DNA of 64,000 bases, from NCBI RefSeq assembly GCF_016859285.1, contig NC_053413.1:16139501-16203500 (forward strand), in the 5' to 3' direction. Positions 11,601-55,597 of this stretch are shown one piece after another. The translations under genes were made by a program, and so were the position numbers. Under the pieces are notes generated by a model. The model was not told where the DNA came from. It searched no databases and saw only the letters and a list, made by a program, of their open reading frames with translations. Position 1 is the stretch's first letter. Each line of letters opens with the position of its first letter. The DNA comes from Xiphias gladius. Lineage: Eukaryota > Chordata > Actinopteri > Istiophoriformes > Xiphiidae.

Positions 11601-14600
11601 CTACCTGTGTGTATCCAGCTGTCCAGTCTAGTGAGGGGCGGGTGGGTGTCACACGGAGTTTGAGTCGCCAAGGAAGTGATGCCACAGATCACCCAGGCTT
11701 CTGTAGTTCAGGGTGGGACGGGACAGAGGAGTACAGGGGCCAGCGGACGTACTCCCCCCGTGTTCCACAGTCCCAGGTAAACACAGTATGTGTGTAATGC
11801 TCAATGTTGTTTTTCCCATTAAATTCTATTGTGAACGGATTCTTACTGTACGTGCCTGTGTGTGTGCTGTTTTTTTTTTCCAGCATCCCCTTTTGTACAG
11901 GAGTGACAGTGCTGACTACAGGGCCCAGGGCCCAGACATGGACAGTGGGGTCGAGGCCGGGAGTGACATGACTCCACCCACTCCTGCCTTCCCCATCTCT
12001 CCACCTACACCGTATGGTAAGTACTGTATTTTTCCTCTTTCATTGTGAATAGGCTCCTTTTGTCGGTGTGATTGATTTTTGCATGTATTTGTGACCAGCT
12101 TCATTTGTTAGGTTTAATTTAATGTCCCTGTCCCTGTTTCCTTTGTGTTTTCAGTGAAAAATATGTCAGAATTAAATCACAACAGGCAAACGCCATCTCC
12201 TAGCATGCAGTCGTATGGAGGCTACAGAACAGACCATGGTAGGTTCAAATCTCTTCAAAATGCAAAACTAGACTCACTACTTCGAGAAAACAGAACATTA
12301 CATGAAGCTGTTATGAAAAGTCTTCAGTCTGAGGGCAGAAAGTGGTTTTTCTTTGTGAACTTAACAGCAGCAGTTAAGAATAGACACAGAACAGTGGAAT
12401 GCAAAAACAATTCTCCATATAATTTCACAGTATTATATTTAAAATACAGATATGTCATTGTATAGTGAAATAAAAATACGGATCATTTTACCTTTTTACA
12501 AGCCTATGGATTTGAGGCTCCATATTATTCAAAGTTAAACAACTAAACAAAGTGCTGTGAAGAACAAAAAAATATTAAGACTGCATTTCCCCTATTCTTC
12601 TGTTAACTTACTTGTGTCTTTTCCCCTAAATCAATTTAAAGATAGTGAGTGACATAAAGATGCAGTGAGTGGGAGGTAATTGCAAGAGTTTTCTTTCATG
12701 TCTGCCCTGTGACTGCCTGTTTGGTTCCACTGTCTCATTAGAACAGAACTATTGGAGGGCCCCCTTGCTTTACCTAAGAACAGTGATGTTGTTGTTCGTG
12801 GAATTTTAGTGGTTTTGAGACAGAGGCTGAAAACAAAGACATCCCATAAAGGCAAAAGCAGGAAGATTCCTAACCGGTCACAGCCCTTTTTGTTTGGTTT
12901 TTGGAGAATGTCTGTGTGGTCACGGCCTGAAGAGAAAACTTTTTTAGACATAACAGTGTTGTTGTTCTTTAGATTAAAAGCGAGCCCCCCCTGTGTTTCT
13001 TTGTGTGGATGTTTTTTTCTGTGGTGTTTATCTGAGCTGGAACACTCCCTGGCTGTAAGATTGTTCTCAGAGATGGGAAAAGTTGTGCATTTGTAGCACT
13101 TTGTAGCAGCAGCATTTGTGGACTTCGATGTAAATTCCCACAACCTTTCATGTTGTTTTTTATTGTTTACTCAATCGTAATGATAGAAATATGTAAAATA
13201 TATGTAAAACTGGTATGAAGCCTTCTTTGCTGACTTTTTTGTCGCATCCCGGATGGTTTCAAATTACGTTAGCTGTGTTTTATTTTACACGTTTTTGGAT
13301 CAGTGTTGTCACAGAAGCACAAGATTGTACATGTGTGGAGCTACCCACATATACGTAGATGGATGATCTCTCCATGAACCTAACCTTTACTTTCATTTTC
13401 ACTCTACTTTGACCTCTTATTGACTTGTTTCCATAGAGATCTACAGTATGTCCAAAGTTTTTAGGGCATAGGAGCAGATCTTTGCCCCTACTGTGCCTCT
13501 TACTACCTCAGACATCCAGGCAAGAATCACCACATTCAGCCCTGCCACATCTCCATGGATACTGTGGGTCAGAAAACATGACACAAAAAAACATTTGTCT
13601 CCGTGTAAACAGAGAGGAAACAGGGACAAGAAGAAACCAGCAACTCGTTCAGCTCTGCACTTCTCACTCCTATAAACCTTACCAAGAGAGAACCTGGCCG
13701 TTGACTGAGTTGGACCATGAGCTTTTCGATTTGGGGCTGTCGGTGGCTTCAGGCTATGGCTGATTAAAATAAAGCTTCTAGATAATCAGAGGACTTTTAA
13801 TTTCTAGCTGCAATCGAATTTGATTTGTTGACTCTGTGGGTTGTGTCAGTGGTAATTGGTTACTGGTTACAATATTGATTGTTTGTTACTGGAAAGAACC
13901 CAGAACTCTTTCCTGAGGGATTTTTGTCCTTTCTCTCTGGCTGTTTTTTCAGCAAGTGTATCTTTGTTTAATTCAAGTTCTTAAATTTGTTTTGTGCAGC
14001 TTTTCTCTCTCCTTCTTTGTATTTATTTTCATGTTTGCACCATTTAAAACAAAAACAGCTCCATCCTGTGAATGTGTTCTAAAATATGCTCGAAGAACTC
14101 AATTTGTTTTCTTTCTCTCACACAGAACCGCGGGAATATTCAGAGATGTTGGGCCATGTTGGAGTTGACAGCTTGCCAGACTCCATCAATTGCCACAGGA
14201 CGCTAAGTGCTACACACTCTGCTTCCATTGTTGGGACCCTTCAGCGGACAGACAGGTAGAATTCTGACCCCTACAAAAACTTAAAGCAGCATTAACCATT
14301 TTATCACTGGCCATCCCAAATTAAAAGGTAGAATGTAGGATCACTTGGATAACCAACACCAGCAGCCCTTTAATATTAATTACAAGTCTATGAGTCTTCA
14401 GTTTTAGTGTTAATACCAAAGATTAAACAATATTGATTTACTGTATGTCAGTGACTTTTTTTGTCTCAACTCAAGCTCATCCATCAATCAGTCCTGGCCA
14501 GACCATCCCGTCCTGAGCCGCCACTCCTCTCTGAGCAGCTACACCTCTACCAGGCAACCACCGCAGCTCTCCATGTCACTTGACTATGGCCATCACTCTC

Positions 14601-17600
14601 CTCCCCTGCACCACCCCCATATCCACCCCGCCCCCAACGCCCACAGCTCCCCTCGAAGCAGCCAGCGAAGCCGCATGGCTCACTACGTTCTCAGCCAAAG
14701 TCCAGCTCAAAGCTTTGACGAGCAGGATGACTCTGGTGTCAGCTATGGCACGGACTGCCCAAACTCTGGCTCTTCTCTTCTGGGAAATGGAGGCATGGAC
14801 AGGGATCTTTTGAACTCCATGGATGGGCAGAATCAGTCACAGACCCCCCAAATGCAGCCCCCACTTCTGCCTGAGAAGAAGAGGGCGTCAGACGGGGAGC
14901 ATTCGCTGGGAACAGCCTCTCCAGCCCACAGTGGGTTCTCGAGTCCCCACAGCGGGAGCTCAGTTAGTATTCCCTTCCCCAACATTTTGCCTGACTTGTC
15001 AGCTCAGACGCCAGGCACAGCGTCACCTCTGCCAGGTAAGCTAAGGTCTGCTAAAGAAACTATTGGCCTCATTGGTGTCACTTAAGGTGATGAGCACACA
15101 AAAGAATGCTGCTAAGACTGTTTGGGCCTATTATTGTGTGTTTTTCAGATGTACTGGCTAGCAAGCAGGTTACTGTAAAATTTGTGCAGGACACATCGAA
15201 ATTCTGGTATAAGCCAGATATCTCAAGAGACCAAGGTAGGTTTCCCAGTTTCCAATTTCTATCCTAAGTAATAAAAGGAAATGCAACTTTTCTGCAGAAC
15301 TGTAGAGCAGCTTCATAACTATGTTTCTCTCCCCTCAGCAATTTCAGTCTTGAAGGACAAGGAGCCTGGCTGCTTTATCGTGAGGGACAGCCACTCCTTC
15401 AGAGGGGCCTATGGACTGGCAATGAAGGTGGCTACACCCCCACCCTCCGTTCTCCAACAGACCAAGAAAGGTACGACATGTGAATGTCTTGTGCATTGTA
15501 TTATTTGAGCAAGTAATATTCTTAACTTTTTCTCTTTGAAGTTCCGTTAGTTAATGGAACAATTCAACATTTTGGGGAAATGCACGCATTGCTTTCTCTC
15601 CAAGAATGACATAAAAGGATTGATACCAGTCTCATATCTGTGCATTAATCATGTAGCTGACGTCTGGACATGGTTAGCCTAGTTTATCACAAAGACTGAA
15701 AGGAGAAGGGGGGAAACAGCTAGAGTGATACGGAACTTCTCATCTGATTCTCAGACAGGAATGAAATATGGATTAAATCCATATTTCCATAAAATTTTGA
15801 AAAGTATTCTTTCAGTTATAATGGTGAAGGTATCAGGTCCACCAGTGTTCATGGGAATCATACATTACACAATCCCGCACAAAGCCATCTACAGTTACAG
15901 CCCACTGTACTCACCTTCATGGTGGAACATGAGAGCATCCTCTTCTGTTTGTGTGTGAGAGCTCCTCGCTCTGTGTTTCTCTCGTGGCCATCATAGTGAT
16001 GAAGCCACACAGAACCCTATTGCCTGATAGTCTTAGATGTGCAGCTAATGTTTCACCCCTTCACAAAAGATGTCCCGAGTCCATAAGCCTACTCTGATCC
16101 CAGGGCCATCTCCCGGGAAGCTCCCTGCCCCACATAACTAGATGTTATATCCAGGGACTAGGTTCAAAACAGGCTGCTTGGATATTAATCCCTAGTGTGT
16201 TTGTTTCAGGAAATACGGAAGGGGATTTTTTTTTTTTTGGAAAGAAAACAAAGTGTCTAGAGGAATCTGTCCAAACATTCTCTGGCCATGATTCGACATG
16301 AAAACAAAGGCTGATTGAGTGATGATACAGAGTCTCATACATCAGTTTTTCTGTTTTAAAAAAGGGCCAGAGGGACGTTAAATCCCACACAATGTGTTCC
16401 AGAGACAAGTTGGATTATTCATAAGATTTTATTTTTTAACAAAAACAACACAAGAAGCGACAAAGGATTCCCTTATACCCTTCCTCTACCAGCCCACCAC
16501 ATCGTTCAACCCTTCCATTTTATCCTCCGCTCGCACCTGTCCTTTTGTATGCTCTCAGCCCTACGCAGTCTAACGGCACCTGTGGTGACATCATGACTTG
16601 GTCTTTCTCCACACACTCAGTTTGGGGCATTGTGGCTCCTTATAAGTGTGAAACCCTATCCACTTTAAGGAGCGGGCCTTTCTCCAAGCCTTTGTGTCAA
16701 GACATTCCTCACATAGACTCCTCCTGCCCCCTTAGAGGCGCTTCTGTGGAATCATAATCCCATTGATCTCTGGAGAGGTCGAATGTAATGATTTAACATG
16801 TTTTATGTAACTTTTCAAGGCTGGGAAACTATATGTTGTGCTGAGATAAATGCTTGGAGCACTGATTTAGGTCAGAGTAAATCTAGGGTGTCAGATAGAG
16901 GACAGTTTTGCTAAAACAGAGGACAGGCAATTATGCAGAATTAATTATCTCTCATATCTCTTTCTGTATCCTCTGTCGGTCCTTTTTTTTTTTTAACAGG
17001 AGGCGATATATCCAATGAACTAGTACGACACTTCCTGATCGAGTGTACACAGAAAGGAGTTCGGTTGAAGGGTTGCCCAAATGAGCCCTATTTTGGTGAG
17101 TGCCTGCTCTGTTAAAACAGTGACAGCTCCTGGCTGTTGGGCTACAGCGCACCAAAGATCAAGCATCCATGCACAACACTGCCCTCTACTGGTCTGTGGT
17201 GTATTGTATCAGTGGCTAGTACAGGATAACTACAGCATCTTTGCAGCAGACAGTTGAGTTGATGTGGCAAAGTGATTACGTGGATGATCAACCAAATCAA
17301 CAAGATTGTCGTTCCATTGATTGTATTTCCTATAATACAAATGAAATATTCACTTTAATCAATCATTTTTTTTTGTCATCTTTTTAGTAATAGCAGACGA
17401 AATACAAAACAAGTGGTTGATGTGGCCATGAAGCATCAGTTTGATTTCATATGCTTTTCTTTTACAGGAAGCTTAACTGCGTTGGTCTGCCAGCATTCAA
17501 TCACTCCCTTGGCCCTGCCCTGTAAACTTATTATACCTGACAGAGGTAAACATTCACACAGTCATACAGTTTTATTTTCTTGGGGAAGATTATGGTCAAA

Positions 17601-29670: not shown

Positions 29671-29785
29671 GAGATGTTTTGGCCGGTGGCTTTATCTGAA
29701 TGAGAGAGCAGCTGACCAGAGAAAGGTCACCACGGTAGGACAGTGCGCGTCCTCACTTTGACACCATATGCTCCCAGACGCCACA

Positions 29786-30158
29786 ATGGATTCCCGTTTT
29801 CGCGCACTTTGCGTGACATTTGTCCTGGCCTCGTTCACCCGGAGGTCAGGTGCGGTCGGACCGGTTATCCGATGCGAGCCATGTGATGCCGGAGCGCGGC
29901 TTGTGTGCAAACCTTTGCCCAAGGACTGCGCCGAGAAAGTCCGCGAACCGGGCTGCGGCTGCTGCCTGACTTGCGCGCTGAGCTTCGGCCAGCCGTGCGG
30001 CGTGTACACCGGGAGATGTGGCTCCGGACTGACTTGTCAGCATCAGCCCGGAGAGACGAAGCCTCTGCAGGCGCTGCTGGAGGGACGGGGGGTCTGCGCG
30101 AACGCCACGAACAAGAGACCAGCCGCCAGACCGACACCTCCGGTCAACGAGCTACCAG
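29786..30158 (+). CDS. igfbp3: igfbp3 exon 1: signal peptide and N-domain
   Basis: 373 nt ending in phase 1. Encodes the signal peptide, GPVIRCEPCDAG, EPGCGCCLTCALSFGQPCGV and RGVC, for twelve conserved N-domain cysteines. Donor GTAAAT. Confidence 0.96.
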
Positions 30159-33100
30159 GTAAATCTTGCGCGTGCACCCTCGCTCCATTTGCGTCCGCTT
30201 CGCACTTTTGGAAAACTCGTCACTGTTCAGTACAGGTTAGTCGTGTCCACCGACGGTCGTTGCAATAACTCTACAGGCTTTTGATTTATTACCCGCTGGA
30301 ATCTGCAAGCTTCCAATGGCAAGGAAATGTGTGTTGATAGGACGCAGAGGGGCAGTTACATAGCTTTGGATGTCAACTGGGCAAGATGGCCCTAGTGTAA
30401 TGCACGGTCAGTAGTCAGTGTATGGACTCGCAAGCGCCGAGCAACACGTTTTCAATGGCACAACACAAGTCCCTCTGAGAGCCACAGTCGCTAGCTGATG
30501 TCACTCATTAATTGCTCTTCATTTATGGAAAGAAAGGGGTGGAGGATGAGACGGTCTGGAGCACATTTAAGGAAAGATCTGCGATGCCCAGGGGAACTTT
30601 GACTGTGCAACAAAAGCGGTGCAGAAAGGTGCGAGGACACGAGACCTCCCTGGATCAATTACCAAAGACTGAATGTTGATTAGGTGATATAGCTGTTTAG
30701 CTTGGGCCCCCAAAAGGGGGACTAAGTGGATTCAACGTTTGAGGCAGAAACACATTTGGAATGTGACAGCGGTCATATTGCATGTTTCTGTTAATTTCCT
30801 GTCAAAACTGAGAGATAGATATAATTTCAGGGCGTGCTTCTGAAAAATGGAATACTCGTGTCCCCCAGGCTGATCTCCGGCTGTAAAAGTTAAATACGTC
30901 TGAATCAACATTAAAGAGTACTCCCTTAAATGGAAGATTATATATCCCAGTTTACTGTTTTGCGAATAAACACATGTTGTTCTCAAACCTCAGCAGAGAA
31001 TATTGACACTCAGGACGAGGAGCGGAATTCCACCGGCTCAGGCCTTCAGATCTCGTACAGCACCCACAGACCCATGGGACCCCTGAGACCTCCGCTTCAC
31101 CCTTTTTTCCCCTCTGCAAAGTCAGCAGTTATCCTGAGACGGGAGCAGCAGAAGCGAACCCAGAGCTTTAAAATGGAGGAGCTCCCAGGACCACTCATCA
31201 CAGACCAGCAAAACTTCTCTCTAGAGACCAAACAGGAGCCTGAGTATGTAAGTACCACAACCAATATTTTTCTGCCTTCAGAGCACACTGGAGTTATGTT
31301 TTTCCCCTCTTCCTCTGAGTTTTGGTGTTTTTCTCCCCGCGCGGGTGATGAAATGTGTTGGGTAGCGGTGCCGACGGCTGGCAGGCTTCGTGAGCAGTAG
31401 AGTGGCATGGCAGCGAGCGGGTACGATGGCCCTGTGGCTGACCTGGGTCAGGCGGTTGTTTGGCCACAAGGCGTCCGCGTGCCGGGTGCACTGAGAGCCA
31501 GTGAATGATGGATTGGCCTATGCGAGTGCCTGTTGGGAAGCCCTGCTGCTATTTTGATCTTCTCTTTGGACAGAGAAGTGAGCACACACTAGTAATGGGC
31601 TTTGACTGGCTGCTTTGATTAGTGACTGGAGTACTTGGACTTGAGGAAAAGCCTTTTGGCTCTCTCTTTGAGCCCTTTGAATTCACTTTATCCCCCATCC
31701 TTTGTGTAAAGTGTAGGAGTTCTAAGCAGCTTTGGAAAACTGTTAAGCCCCCGCAAGTCGGTCAGTTGAATTCATTTCTCACCCGTCACCTCTTTCATAT
31801 TGCAGCCACCATTGTTTAAGTATTACAGCAGAACAGTGTGTGATGCAGCGTGAGCCAGCTTTGTTAACGTCTTTATTTACAAAACCATTAAATCTGTGTC
31901 AAAATCACGCTGCTGAGGGGAAATACCTTGAGCTAACGGCATTAGCTGCATTCAGATTTGTTGAAGTGCTCTCGAGTTCGAGCTGGAAACAAGCATTCAA
32001 GTTATGGGGAAAGTGCACTAACTTCTTATGTGTTCCCTCATCTGTAGGGTCCCTGTCGGAGAGAGATTGAGAGCATTCTCAGCAGCCTCAAGATTACAGA
32101 CATACTCAACCCCAGAGGTTTCCGCATACCAAACTGTGACAAGAAGGGCTTCTATAAGAAAAAGCAGGTAAAACAGCACATTCAAAGGCCCATCATTTGA
32201 TACTGACTACAGGATAATTATAGATTCATGCATCAATTTCAAGAGAGACTGCACATTATTTAAAGATCTGCTTAAAAAAAAACAGAAAAACTTTCAACTT
32301 GTTTACTACTTTAAAAGCTGCACAAAGAGAACACGCACCTCCCTTTTCACAGGCTACATTAATAAAGATTCAATGCTAAATTCTAGAGACTCAAACTTTA
32401 GGTCTCCTGCAGCCCAATTACAGATTTGTAGCTGTCCTACAGTATTCATTGGTAGTTATTAGAGCCTCATCATTGCACCACCACACCAGTGAGGTAGACC
32501 CTAGCCGCTGACTCTGGAGACAGGAACCACAGGGGCCAAACCCCAGTGGGGTTGACGGCTGGGACGATGGCCGTTTAACGGGAACCCTCCCAGGGAGACA
32601 GACGTCAAGGTGGCCACCGGCACCCGATGCGCTCGCCCCATAATTGCTGGACTTTTGAGAAGCAGGCACAGAAATAGAGCTGCAGCCATCCCCACGCTCA
32701 CATGGTTCACCCACGATTGGGTTGTAATAAATGAGTGGTTCTGACGCATTCATATGGAGGCACTTAGGGCTCCCGCGCCACTGCATCACTGAAGCAGCTT
32801 TTCTTATTACATAGCAGTCCCTCCTGCTTAATGGAAGTGTTCTCTTTGACCTGCAATCATCTTATAACCAGCCTCACAACGCCAGGCTCATTGTCTTTGT
32901 TTATGTAGAATGGACCTAGTGTACCATGCTGAGCCCTCAGGCGCTGAAGGAGTGGCAGACCTTTCATGTTGGTCAGTTTAACTTGGACGTTTTTGCATGA
33001 TTTTAAGCAAAAACTTCTCTTATTGCGGCTCTTGATAACAGTAAATGTCTTTTTAGAGTAGAAAAAAACTACTCTGCAGATTCCACGCTGGAGGCAGATC

Positions 33101-33970
33101 AAGTCAATTCAATTGTGCTTACATTTTTGATTACTGTATTAGTTTTCCTACCATCCAATTTGTGATACTTTTGTTTTGCAGCGGAAATTTTAAATCCCTT
33201 ATGATACATTTCTGTCCTCACAAGATGCAGACAGACCCTCGATCAAACCCCTATGAAATATCGAACTAAATAAGGATGTCCTCCCTCCTGATCAGCTCTG
33301 ACTCCTCTGTGGAGCAGCAGCACAGTTGCTTTAGCCCTTGAAATGAATGGCTGCATGTTTTACTAGAGTGGAGGTTGACCTTTAGTAAAATTGGCAGTAA
33401 AATAACAGCCCTTGGGTAGCTCCACAGACTCTGTAAGTCATTTGTAGTACCCATAATTTGGAGCTGTGGGGTATAATCAGCAACAGATGATTCGTACTGG
33501 CCACCAGCTTCTGAAAATAGATCTTGGTTCTCAGTTGTTCACAAACGGGACTAAGCAAATATTTTACCAGGTTTCTGTTTACCTTAAAGGTCTCTATATG
33601 TGTGTGTAACAGGAGGTAGACCATAAAAGCAGCTCAAAATACCACAGCGTGTTGGATAGCCAAGGCTGCATCGACTCAGCACAATCTGACCATTAATGCC
33701 ACTTAACTATTGCTGTTCTACTTCATTGAGTAAAGTGGCTCGTTACCCATAATGCTGCATATTCAACTGGATTTACACATTTAGCAGCCTTCCCCCTTCT
33801 ATTTCTCTTCCCTCCTTTCACCCTGTCCCTTCTTTCGCTTTCAGTGCCGTCCATCCAAAGGCAGAAAGCGTGGCTTCTGTTGGTGTGTGGACAAATACGG
33901 GCAGCCGTTGCCAGGTTTTGATGGGAAGGAGCGAGGAGACGCCCAGTACTACAACTCCGAGAGCCAATAG
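29786..33970 (+). CDS. igfbp3: Insulin-like growth factor binding protein 3
   Basis: Secreted carrier of IGF-1/IGF-2. Coding exons 29786-30158, 30994-31247, 32048-32167 and 33845-33970 join to 290 residues (human 291). The ATG at 29786 was chosen over 29768 for its Kozak context (CCACAATGG) and because a signal peptide follows directly. Order: signal peptide (about 1-25), N-domain with all 12 cysteines and the GCGCC motif, variable linker, then a thyroglobulin type-1 C-domain with CWCVD. The basic stretch KKKQCRPSKGRKRG, typical of IGFBP-3 heparin, nuclear-import and acid-labile-subunit binding, spans the last splice. Oddity: the sixth C-domain cysteine is Tyr (residue 284). Four exons in the family pattern; next gene igfbp1 is tail-to-tail. 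IGFBP5 also shares the basic region, but synteny with tns3 and igfbp1 favours igfbp3. Confidence 0.95.
30994..31247 (+). CDS. igfbp3: igfbp3 exon 2: variable linker
   Basis: 254 nt, phase 1 to 0. Ser/Thr/Pro-rich linker (SGLQISYSTHRPMGPLRPPL), ending KQEPEY at a GTAAGT donor. The acceptor is a tandem CAGCAG; using the second AG (start 30997) would drop one Ala and keep the frame. Confidence 0.9.
32048..32167 (+). CDS. igfbp3: igfbp3 exon 3: C-domain
   Basis: 120 nt, phase 0 to 0: GPCRREIESILSSLKI, then PNCDKKGFYKKKQ. This is the first half of the thyroglobulin type-1 domain. Confidence 0.97.
33845..33970 (+). CDS. igfbp3: igfbp3 exon 4: C-domain and stop
   Basis: 126 nt: CRPSKGRKRGFCWCVDKYGQ, PLPGFDGKERGDAQ, YYNSESQ, TAG at 33968. 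The codon at 33947-33949 is TAC (Tyr) where the family has Cys. Confidence 0.97.
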   Translation, partial: CRPSKGRKRGFCWCVDKYGQPLPGFDGKERGDAQYYNSESQ

Positions 33971-35881: not shown

Positions 35882-36007
35882 TCAGTGCGTAACTTCTTGA
35901 TGACACTCTGAATCGCCAAGCAGGTCACTCGATCCTGGGATCTTCTTCCCGTTCCAGGAGGAGACACACCAGCAGCGAGCAGGCGGTCCGACCAGAGATG
36001 ACTCACA
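35882..36007 (-). CDS. igfbp1: igfbp1 exon 4: C-domain and stop
   Basis: 126 nt: CESSLVGPPARCWCVSSWNG, KKIPGSSDLLGDSEC, HQEVTH, TGA. CWCV is intact and the last Cys is present. Confidence 0.97.
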   Translation of the reverse strand, partial: CESSLVGPPARCWCVSSWNGKKIPGSSDLLGDSECHQEVTH

Positions 36008-37026
36008 CTGAAGGCGTAAGAGATGGGAAACCACATGAGTAAATCCGCCGGTAGCTTCAGACGAATCTCCTTCAACAGGTGGACGGAATTTTATTTTTGC
36101 GAAATATTCTCACCTGTTTGGCCTTGTAGAAGCCGTGCTTGTCGCAGTTGGGGAGGTAGAAAGTTGTGAACTTCTCTCCTAGTTTCTGCTGAGAGCTGGC
36201 GATCATGTCCAGTGCGCTGTGCAGTTCAATGTGACAGGGTCCCTGTGCAAAAATAGAATGAGTGAGAACAGTGAGAACTACACTCACACATGAACAGGTG
36301 TTTATAGAGAGATAACTGGGATTTATATGTCTATATAAATCCCGGTTATCCCTCAAAACCAAGTGCTCCCTCTTGTGGAAGGAAGGTATATTTCTTCAAA
36401 TCATCTTCACGAGTCCTTGTTTTTTCCTCACCTGTTGTACCAGTTTGTTGCGGATAGCATTGACCTTGGCCTTGATGCTCTCGTGGCCCTCGGCAGTGTC
36501 TTGGTGGTCAAAGGGAAGGTTGAGACCCAACAGGTAGTGCAGGGAGCCGTGGTCAGGGACTACTTCAGTATCCTCTGTAAAATAATGTTGGAGTGCTGCT
36601 TAAGTTCAGTGTAAAGTATAGAATTGTATGACCATGAAAGTTGGAAGAAGAATACGTAAACCCTGAGAAACTTAGATTACCTTGGCCCAGGTCTTCAGTG
36701 CAGACCCCCTGTCCCCTGGTCAGAGCGGCGAGAGGTCTGAGCTCACCAGGCCTGGGAGTGCAGCGGAGACCCTCACCACAGTGGGCTGTGTGAACTCCAC
36801 AGGACTCCCCTCTCTCCAGAGCGCAGGCCATGCAGCAGCCACAGCCAGGCTCCCTCAGGACCTGCCTGCAGTCTGGTGGGATGGCAGGACAGTTGTTCAG
36901 TTTCTCCTGCGTGCAGGGGGCACAGCGGATAGGCTCCGGTACCACCACTGGGGATGACCTCACCACGGCTAAGACAGCCAGAACCGCTCCTGCCACAAAT
37001 GTCAGCTTCTCATATAATCCGGGCAT
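35882..37026 (-). CDS. igfbp1: Insulin-like growth factor binding protein 1
   Basis: Secreted, mainly liver-made IGF carrier; in fish and mammals it is induced by fasting, hypoxia and stress and limits IGF action. Coding exons in transcript order: 37026-36681, 36574-36432, 36242-36114, 36007-35882, giving 247 residues. Order: signal peptide (MPGLYEKLTFVAGAVLAVLA), N-domain with 12 cysteines (RCAPC, GCGCC), a short linker containing HYLLGLNLPFDHQDT and ESIKAKVNAIRNKLVQQ typical of fish Igfbp1, and a thyroglobulin type-1 C-domain with FYLPNCDKHGFYK, CWCVSSWNGKKIPG and all six cysteines. The mammalian RGD near the C terminus is replaced (LLGD). Neighbouring igfbp3 and adcy1 match mammalian synteny. 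Whether this is the a or b paralogue cannot be told. Confidence 0.95.
36114..36242 (-). CDS. igfbp1: igfbp1 exon 3: C-domain
   Basis: 129 nt, phase 0 to 0: GPCHIELHSALDMIASSQQK, then FYLPNCDKHGFYKAKQ. Confidence 0.97.
36432..36574 (-). CDS. igfbp1: igfbp1 exon 2: linker
   Basis: 143 nt, phase 1 to 0: EDTEVVPDHGSLHYLLGLNL, then PFDHQDTAEGHESIKAKVNA and IRNKLVQQ. Acceptor TTACAG, donor GTGAGG. Confidence 0.95.
36681..37026 (-). CDS. igfbp1: igfbp1 exon 1: signal peptide and N-domain
   Basis: 346 nt, ATG at 37026. Contains PEPIRCAPC, EPGCGCCMACALERGESCGV and RGQGVC. Ends in phase 1 at GTAATC. Confidence 0.96.
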
Positions 37027-37130
37027 CTCCAGTCCTCAGAAAAGTATGTTCTTTCTTTTGGACTCGCTTCTGCAAACTGCTCTGTATGACTGTAGTTTTC
37101 CTTCTGAAGTGATTTCTCTGACCCAACTGT

Positions 37131-39064: not shown

Positions 39065-39070
39065 TTTATT
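39065..39070 (-). terminator. Candidate poly(A) signal of the small three-exon gene
   Basis: AATAAA on the minus strand about 210 bases after the predicted stop at 39278. Confidence 0.5.
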
Positions 39071-39277
39071 CAGTGATAATGACAAAATAAAACAAAACAA
39101 AAAAATACACAGTGACTTACACATTACACATGGACTTTAGTCTCTGGCACTGCCAACTCTTAATGCTATTTTATTTTGTGAGGCATTTGTTCTACATTCA
39201 GTATTCACCAAGGAGATCAGTGCTTGATTTGCCCAACATGTTCCACGTTCACCTTGTGAGGCCTGCGATGATTTGTG

Positions 39278-39373
39278 TCACTCAACCACCAGTTGGTGTG
39301 TTGTTGCCTCTTCGATGTTGACCATCAGATCCATCAGCCACTGAGGAAACAGCTCCTCCTTGGAAAGATTTTT
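39278..39373 (-). CDS. Unknown gene exon 3 with stop
   Basis: 96 nt: KNLSKEELFPQWLMDLMVNI, EEATTHQLVVE, TGA. Acceptor CATGTCCAG. Confidence 0.72.
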   Translation of the reverse strand, partial: KNLSKEELFPQWLMDLMVNIEEATTHQLVVE

Positions 39374-40040
39374 CTGGACATGTGTGGGGGAAAAAAACCC
39401 CCGTTATAATCCATATTTGTTTAGAGGTTAAATAATCTTTGCTTACAATGAACACTCACAACCAGTGACGATGCCTTGTGGCGTTTCCTGTTTGTCTTCT
39501 TCTGCACTGATGGTTTAGGAGGTGTGGGTTGGTGCCATCTGATCTTGGAAATCTTAAAACAATTGATCATCACCTCTTTTTCACCCAGGCTGTGTGTTGT
39601 TCATCCGAGCATAAAATGTGATAAAAAATGCTTACCTTTATCCTCAGCTTCCTACTACTGGACCACTTCTCGTTTCCTAACTTTGGCTGCCCAGGGGGTG
39701 TAGCTTCATCACTTAAACCCACTGCATGTGTGCTCAGATCTGACACTGAGAAATTCTTCGTTTTTTCCTGGTGATTGCTGGTAGATCGCTTTTGAAGAAA
39801 ACTCTCTTGGCTGAAGGAATGAGACAGTCGCCTGGGTCTCAGAACCCTCAGCAGAGCATCATCGTCTTCTTCTTCTTCTTCTTCTTCTTCTGCACTCTTA
39901 TCTTCTGCCATTACGTCCTCTGTCTCCACACCTACGTGAGTTTGAGAATCCTCCTCTCCTTCTCCTGTTTTGCTTCGTCTGATTTCATCTTCGTGCTCTG
40001 ACTCTTCCTGGATGGGCTCCAGATACGGCCTCTGTTCCAT
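39278..40040 (-). CDS. Small acidic/basic protein of unknown function, candidate ccdc201 orthologue
   Basis: Three exons in transcript order, 40040-39636, 39552-39460 and 39373-39278, each joined in phase 0 and giving 197 residues. The N-terminal half is acidic (IQEESEHEDEIRRS, then SAEEEEEEEEDDD from a GAA/TCT repeat). Next come an Arg/Ser block (RVLRPRRLSHSFSQESFLQK) and a basic segment (VQKKTNRKRHKASSLV). The C-terminal exon looks folded: KNLSKEELFPQWLMDLMVNI then EEATTHQLVVE. No signal peptide or membrane segment; likely nuclear or cytoplasmic. Clean donors (GTAAGC, GTGAGT) and a good poly(A) signal argue for a real gene. I do not recognise the sequence. Human CCDC201, an oocyte-expressed protein of about 187 residues, lies to my knowledge at 7p13 near this block, so it is the best candidate, unproven. 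Confidence 0.72.
39460..39552 (-). CDS. Unknown gene exon 2
   Basis: 93 nt: ISKIRWHQPTPPKPSVQKKT then NRKRHKASSLV. Acceptor GTTTTAAG, donor GTGAGT. Strongly basic. Confidence 0.68.
39636..40040 (-). CDS. Unknown gene exon 1
   Basis: 405 nt, 135 codons. ATG at 40040, reading MEQRPYLEPIQEESEHEDE. Ends SSSRKLRIK at donor GTAAGC. Confidence 0.75.
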
Positions 40041-40423
40041 CAGTTACAGTCATGTTATTTTGAAGAAAGACAGAATTAACATGGCAAGTCGACTTAATGA
40101 TGAATTTTCAGATTTTTTTGAATTGTGGCTTATTTCATATGAAAGATGGCCTTTACTTGAGCAAAAAAAAAAAAAAGTGGATTAAAACTTACATTTTGCT
40201 GCTGAATGTCCATTTGGCTGGATGACTGAACTTTCCTGATGTGTAAAGATCCTGCAGTTTCAGGTTTTCATTAGCTGATTATTCCCATCAGGTGTGGAAG
40301 CTTAACTACGGACAGATGACAGGTGGTGATGTCCTGTAGTGTAACCTGATCCAAAGGTTCTACAATATCAAAGCTCTGTGTTGTAATAAATTTCAATTCA
40401 AAAACAGGTTTTAACTTGTTATT

Positions 40424-43582: not shown

Positions 43583-55597
<12,015 letters not shown>

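Follow-up and report, generated by a model that had tools for sequence, protein, structure and literature searches.

A compact gene on the minus strand of the window (the whole 64-kb stretch of Xiphias gladius DNA analysed here) is very probably the fish orthologue of CCDC201, because the order and strands of the surrounding genes agree with the human locus and its last exon aligns to the end of a provisional human CCDC201 sequence. Both the fit in synteny and orientation and the ungapped alignment of exon 3, which none of 20,000 shuffles equalled, uphold the orthology that a first-pass annotation of this DNA had put forward.

Gene model and genomic neighbourhood

Direct translation of three coding exons, all in phase 0, between positions 39278 and 40040 of the minus strand gives a protein of 197 residues with an acidic first half carrying eight consecutive glutamates, a basic middle (KKTNRKRHK) and a final helix. 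The layout given in the first-pass annotation (three phase-0 exons, 197 residues, octa-Glu repeat, basic middle and C-terminal helix) was thereby reproduced in full, and the poly(A) signal it had placed nearby is present in two copies (Table 1).

Table 1. Coordinates of the candidate gene, its putative upstream elements and its neighbours in the window.
Feature	Position	Strand	Details
Tensin-like gene, SH2 exon	15275..15505	+	SH2 match of 21.3 bits (cut-off 21), E 3e-4; taken as tns3 by place
igfbp3	29762..33967	+	IGFBP domain exon and thyroglobulin-1 exon; best match IGFBP3, 5e-37
igfbp1 (presumed)	35885..37035	-	IGFBP domain exon 36568-37035; thyroglobulin-1 exon 35885-36109
Two AATAAA poly(A) signals	39065..39175	-	Starts at 39175 and 39070, 103 and 208 nt beyond the stop
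Exon 3 including stop	39278..39373	-	96 nt; KNLSKEELFPQWLMDLMVNIEEATTHQLVVE, then stop; conserved C-terminal helix
Exon 2	39460..39552	-	93 nt, 31 codons; basic patch KKTNRKRHK; alternative start 39543
Exon 1, coding part	39636..40040	-	405 nt, 135 codons; ATG at 40040; acidic, octa-Glu, RRLS site
Candidate upstream coding exon	40193..40213	-	MDIQQQN; donor AAT/GTAAGT, top 1.5%
Two CACCTG E-boxes, candidate FIGLA sites	40289-40294, 40320-40325	-	0.16 expected in 300 bp
adcy1 (presumed), 3' part	43586..45403	-	Cyclase catalytic exons 45239-45403 and 43586-44038; best PDB match adenylate cyclase type 5

The genes of the window follow one another as tensin (+), igfbp3 (+), igfbp1 (-), the candidate (-) and adcy1 (-), with the two IGFBP genes arranged tail to tail. 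For the IGFBP gene on the minus strand the best PDB match is IGFBP5, followed by IGFBP3, IGFBP1 being absent among the six matches, and we take this gene to be igfbp1 from its place and a presumed likeness in sequence; the type 1 subtype of the cyclase neighbour is likewise presumed. When flipped, the window agrees with the presumed order and strands of ADCY1, CCDC201, IGFBP1, IGFBP3 and TNS3 on human chromosome 7. The genes stand close together, as suits a fish genome. The earlier placement of the gene between igfbp1 and adcy1 is borne out by both order and strands, where the human side and the subtypes of these two neighbours are presumed.

Three further observations concern the surroundings of the gene. 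The tensin-like gene lies at 14414-15505 on the plus strand, to the left of igfbp3. In the cyclase exon at 43586-44038, the end of the cyclase domain is followed by a long tail that is first rich in Ser and Ala and then acidic. The plus strand also has an extended tract of low complexity (49756-50576), whose four overlapping open frames of 117-155 codons look like a repeat and not like genes.

Splice sites were scored with simple matrices and ranked against the 7,653 GTs and 8,445 AGs of the window. The exon 1 donor (AAG/GTAAGC) belongs to the top 0.14% of the 7,653 GTs, the exon 2 donor (GTT/GTGAGT) to the top 4.5% of window GTs and the exon 3 acceptor to the top 3.3% of the 8,445 AGs, and these three sites deserve the description as clean that they had received. 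The same description does not suit the exon 2 acceptor (TTTTAAG/), which is at the level of a random AG, with 49% of the 8,445 AGs doing at least as well; 9 nt further on, another in-frame site (TTCCAAG/, 39543) obtains a better score (21.5%).

Judged from the sequence, the start of the protein is ambiguous, and lengths of 197 or 201 residues are both possible. The candidate upstream exon, read from 40213 to 40193 and joined in phase 0 to position 40031, would give the 201-residue alternative by way of a weak acceptor (GGAACAG/, 46% of AGs scoring as high). In the 201-residue model, the ATG at 40040 used by the 197-residue model falls inside an intron.

Coding potential and likeness to human CCDC201

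The length of the open frames alone is not beyond chance. The window contains 12 stop-to-stop frames of at least 157 codons; Markov simulations gave a mean of 1.1-2.2 such frames per 64 kb, and at least one was present in 36, 48 and 55 of 60 simulated windows for orders 1, 2 and 3, respectively. Codon bias favours coding only mildly, with 4.9% (n=265), 15.9% (n=14,467) and 9.9% (n=13,790) of non-genic stop-free stretches scoring as high as exons 1, 2 and 3, respectively. For exon 2, two other frames beat its own, and for exon 3 the correct frame is the highest by a small margin. ORF length and codon bias were rejected as proof of coding, being too weak for that purpose; the candidate rises above chance because exon 3 matches CCDC201 at the syntenic place.

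The human CCDC201 sequence used in these comparisons is provisional: it was set down once the fish tail was known, and its independent check covers length alone; it counts 187 residues, equal to the published length (PMC6886504), which also bears out the earlier statement that the 197-residue fish protein is of similar size. All 31 residues of exon 3 can be aligned, without a gap, to the end of the provisional human sequence, with a blastp E value of 8e-7 in this single-pair comparison. Within its core of 20 residues, 10 are identical to the provisional human CCDC201, an agreement found in 0 of 200,000 permutations, and the impression of a conserved C-terminal helix is confirmed to this extent. 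At the expected position, the basic patch of exon 2 was compared with provisional human residues 126-160, and 144 of 20,000 shuffles were as good; against the whole provisional human protein the number was 1,517 of 20,000, with the exon's own frame the best of six. The first ~140 residues had no similarity to the provisional human CCDC201 beyond chance (554 of 5,000 shuffles), and similarity above chance is confined to the last ~57 residues. The comparison of the translation with CCDC201 that had been suggested, with emphasis on exon 3, was successful for that exon, though against a provisional human sequence, and not for the N-terminal parts. Such N-terminal divergence is expected of a fast-evolving disordered region, so full-length similarity was not taken as defining.

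The fish protein and CCDC201 (human, 187 aa; mouse ENSMUSG00000087512) have in common the place and orientation between IGFBP1 and ADCY1 (human side presumed), a similar length, the basic patch, a single RRLS and the C-terminal helix QW...NIEEATxHxLxxE. RRLS is the sole RRx[ST] site in both the fish and the provisional human protein, and the aligner leaves the two sites unpaired. They differ in the N-terminal ~140 residues, which are not alignable beyond chance, and in the octa-Glu run of the fish protein as opposed to a Gln-rich run in the provisional human CCDC201. The C-terminal ends differ as well: the fish protein stops directly after VE, the provisional human CCDC201 adds DD, and the rodent proteins are described with an extension of ~30 aa beyond the tail (PMC6886504).

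The first-pass annotation had called a chance ORF unlikely on account of the splice sites and the poly(A) signal. A length within chance, a modest codon bias and a weak exon 2 acceptor weaken that argument, and the same features would suit untranslated open frames that came together by chance or belong to a decayed gene. This reading is nevertheless highly improbable given the homology of exon 3 in the correct frame, on the correct strand and at the syntenic place, the advantage of exon 2's own frame over the other five against the provisional human CCDC201, the strong exon 1 donor, the good exon 3 acceptor and the poly(A) signals.

A Pfam search with the whole 197-residue protein matched no family, and the best result of a PDB sequence search with the whole protein was REF6 at E 0.67, over the Glu-rich and following part. 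PDB sequence searches with the fish tail and the sororin tail returned nothing, and a search for relatives in viral contigs gave 600 pattern matches, none of them confirmed. In a limited literature collection we found no paper containing the exon 3 peptide or the phrase 'domain-containing protein 201', and none bringing together CCDC201, zebrafish, oocyte, ovary and teleost.

The terminal helix and its possible partners

Between the fish and the provisional human protein, it is chiefly the last helix that has been kept, along with the basic patch. An AlphaFold single-sequence model of exon 3 alone has a helix at residues 5-30 of 31 with a mean pLDDT of 88.8; a short lone peptide is easily drawn helical. 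We take the human stop-gain allele of CCDC201 to be Arg162Ter, a name with no occurrence in five papers searched for it; residue 162 of the provisional human sequence is an Arg, located just before the conserved helix. Homozygotes for the stop-gain are described as reaching menopause nine years early (PMC12680335, citing Oddsson et al.).

FIGLA control is reported for the mouse Ccdc201 locus, and the E-boxes upstream of the candidate, as putative FIGLA sites, would agree with it. Counted from the upstream ATG at 40213, the two CACCTG E-boxes are located at -76 and -107. Since the window contains five CACCTG pairs within 60 bp, the pair near the candidate gene is not unique. A CATCTG E-box is also present at 40313 on the minus strand, and together with both CACCTG it falls within 37 bp, just 5' of the candidate first exon.

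We consider it rather probable that CCDC201 acts through a docking helix as a disordered adaptor of the oocyte. In such a mechanism, FIGLA would turn on transcription in oocytes via the E-boxes just upstream, yielding a small, mostly disordered nuclear protein whose basic stretch may assist import into the nucleus or contact with chromatin. Docking on a partner complex would fall to the terminal helix, the presumed essential part, and the presumed Arg162Ter would truncate human CCDC201 just before it.

One candidate model for the helix is Sororin (CDCA5), in which a basic stretch is likewise followed by a C-terminal helix of the form W-x3-Phi ... A ... L-x-Phi-E with identical spacing. The animal Sororin box is given the consensus [W/F/Y]xxxPhiNxxFxE[A/Phi][E/D]x[F/Y]ELxPhiE, preceded by a basic stretch in vertebrates (PMC10656103). 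The linker between basic stretch and box is given as 10-20 residues (PMC11148194), and the 16 residues from KKTNRKRHK to the W of the fish protein are within this range. Without gaps, the fish tail fits the consensus at 7/12 positions, the provisional human CCDC201 at 8/12 and a likewise provisional human sororin at 10/12, and all 7 fish matches also hold in the human CCDC201. The fish tail is the only one of 2,180 C-terminal 20-mers, taken from all six reading frames of the window, to reach 7/12, and composition shuffles attain the observed score in 23 of 5,000 cases for the fish and 17 of 5,000 for the provisional human tail.

These values, the position of the box after a basic stretch and an end in VE like that of sororin would be in line with CCDC201 being a diverged relative of sororin, or a mimic of it, that is specific to oocytes and whose helix, seated on the SMC3-kleisin neck, prevents WAPL from releasing cohesin while the oocytes are arrested. 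Silva et al. allow for such a factor: one of their two options is a yet unknown sororin-like protein that protects Rec8-cohesin in oocytes (PMC7147110). We nonetheless regard a sororin-like function as unlikely. Where Sororin has the phenylalanines F241 and F247, the fish and the provisional human CCDC201 alike carry Ile and His; Thr takes the place of the acidic residue, and the Asn is missing. In fission yeast, F299, D303 and Y305 of Sor1 are reported to be needed for function (PMC11148194), and by our own mapping these would correspond to the replaced helix positions. The FGF, YSR (vertebrate sororins) and KEN motifs had 0 matches in the fish or the provisional human protein. The Pfam family Sororin_C (PF25220) reports sororin (4.8e-11) but none of three CCDC201 tails and not the provisional human protein as a whole, in a search where HMMER filters hide weak scores. 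The chance per tail is 1.5e-4 for a fit of at least 7/12 and 9e-6 for at least 8/12, corresponding to about 3 and 0.2 per 20,000 proteins, which is not significant for a resemblance chosen out of many possible ones; of all 20-mers in the window 10/48,628 reach 7/12, the fish tail among them. The extension past the tail, by 30 aa in rodents (PMC6886504) and by two residues in the provisional human CCDC201, also argues against the sororin-like reading. Given the replaced key phenylalanines, the absent motifs, the lack of a Sororin_C report and the chance rate, the protein is therefore not classed as sororin, though it might act like one. Fish sororin itself was rejected as an identity for the candidate by the Sororin_C result and the replaced Sororin-box residues. 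In the limited literature collection, we found no paper naming both CCDC201 and sororin. A vertebrate-wide guard of oocyte cohesin, in which a divergent Sororin box shields REC8/RAD21L cohesin against WAPL throughout the prolonged arrest and the stop-gain deletes the box, appears doubtful to us.

We lean slightly towards the terminal helix being a docking motif for another partner, e.g. an oocyte transcription, RNA or cytoskeletal complex, with no link to cohesin. The helix has fixed residues of its own, N-I-E-E-A-T and H, where sororin differs, and what CCDC201 does in oocytes is called largely elusive (PMC12884753). The provisional human tail also has a sub-threshold match to the BCL7 N-terminus (Pfam BCL_N, E 0.045; 14.1 bits, cut-off 25). 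However, the BCL7-like ERVRQWE is not kept in the fish protein (EELFPQWL), the fish tails have no BCL7 match, and BCL_N was rejected on the grounds that the fish protein does not have those residues; no database match obtained here points to any partner. Both the sororin-like and the other-partner explanation are readings of the partner and no alternatives to orthology with CCDC201.

Meaning of a probable fish ccdc201

A description from 2019 has CCDC201 conserved as far as birds (PMC6886504). With an orthologue in fish, the gene would reach beyond birds and trace to the ancestor that all bony vertebrates share, and this extension to fish, anticipated in the first-pass annotation, is supported by synteny and by the alignment of exon 3 to the provisional human sequence. 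If a sororin-like function were true, it would bear on why REC8-cohesin resists WAPL in mouse oocytes, a question described as open in print (PMC7147110). The discovery of the gene, very probably fish ccdc201, is in itself modest; its use lies in reaching past birds and in isolating the likely working part. A true orthologue would mark the last ~50 residues as that part of CCDC201 and would allow fish knock-outs to serve as a laboratory model for a human infertility gene.
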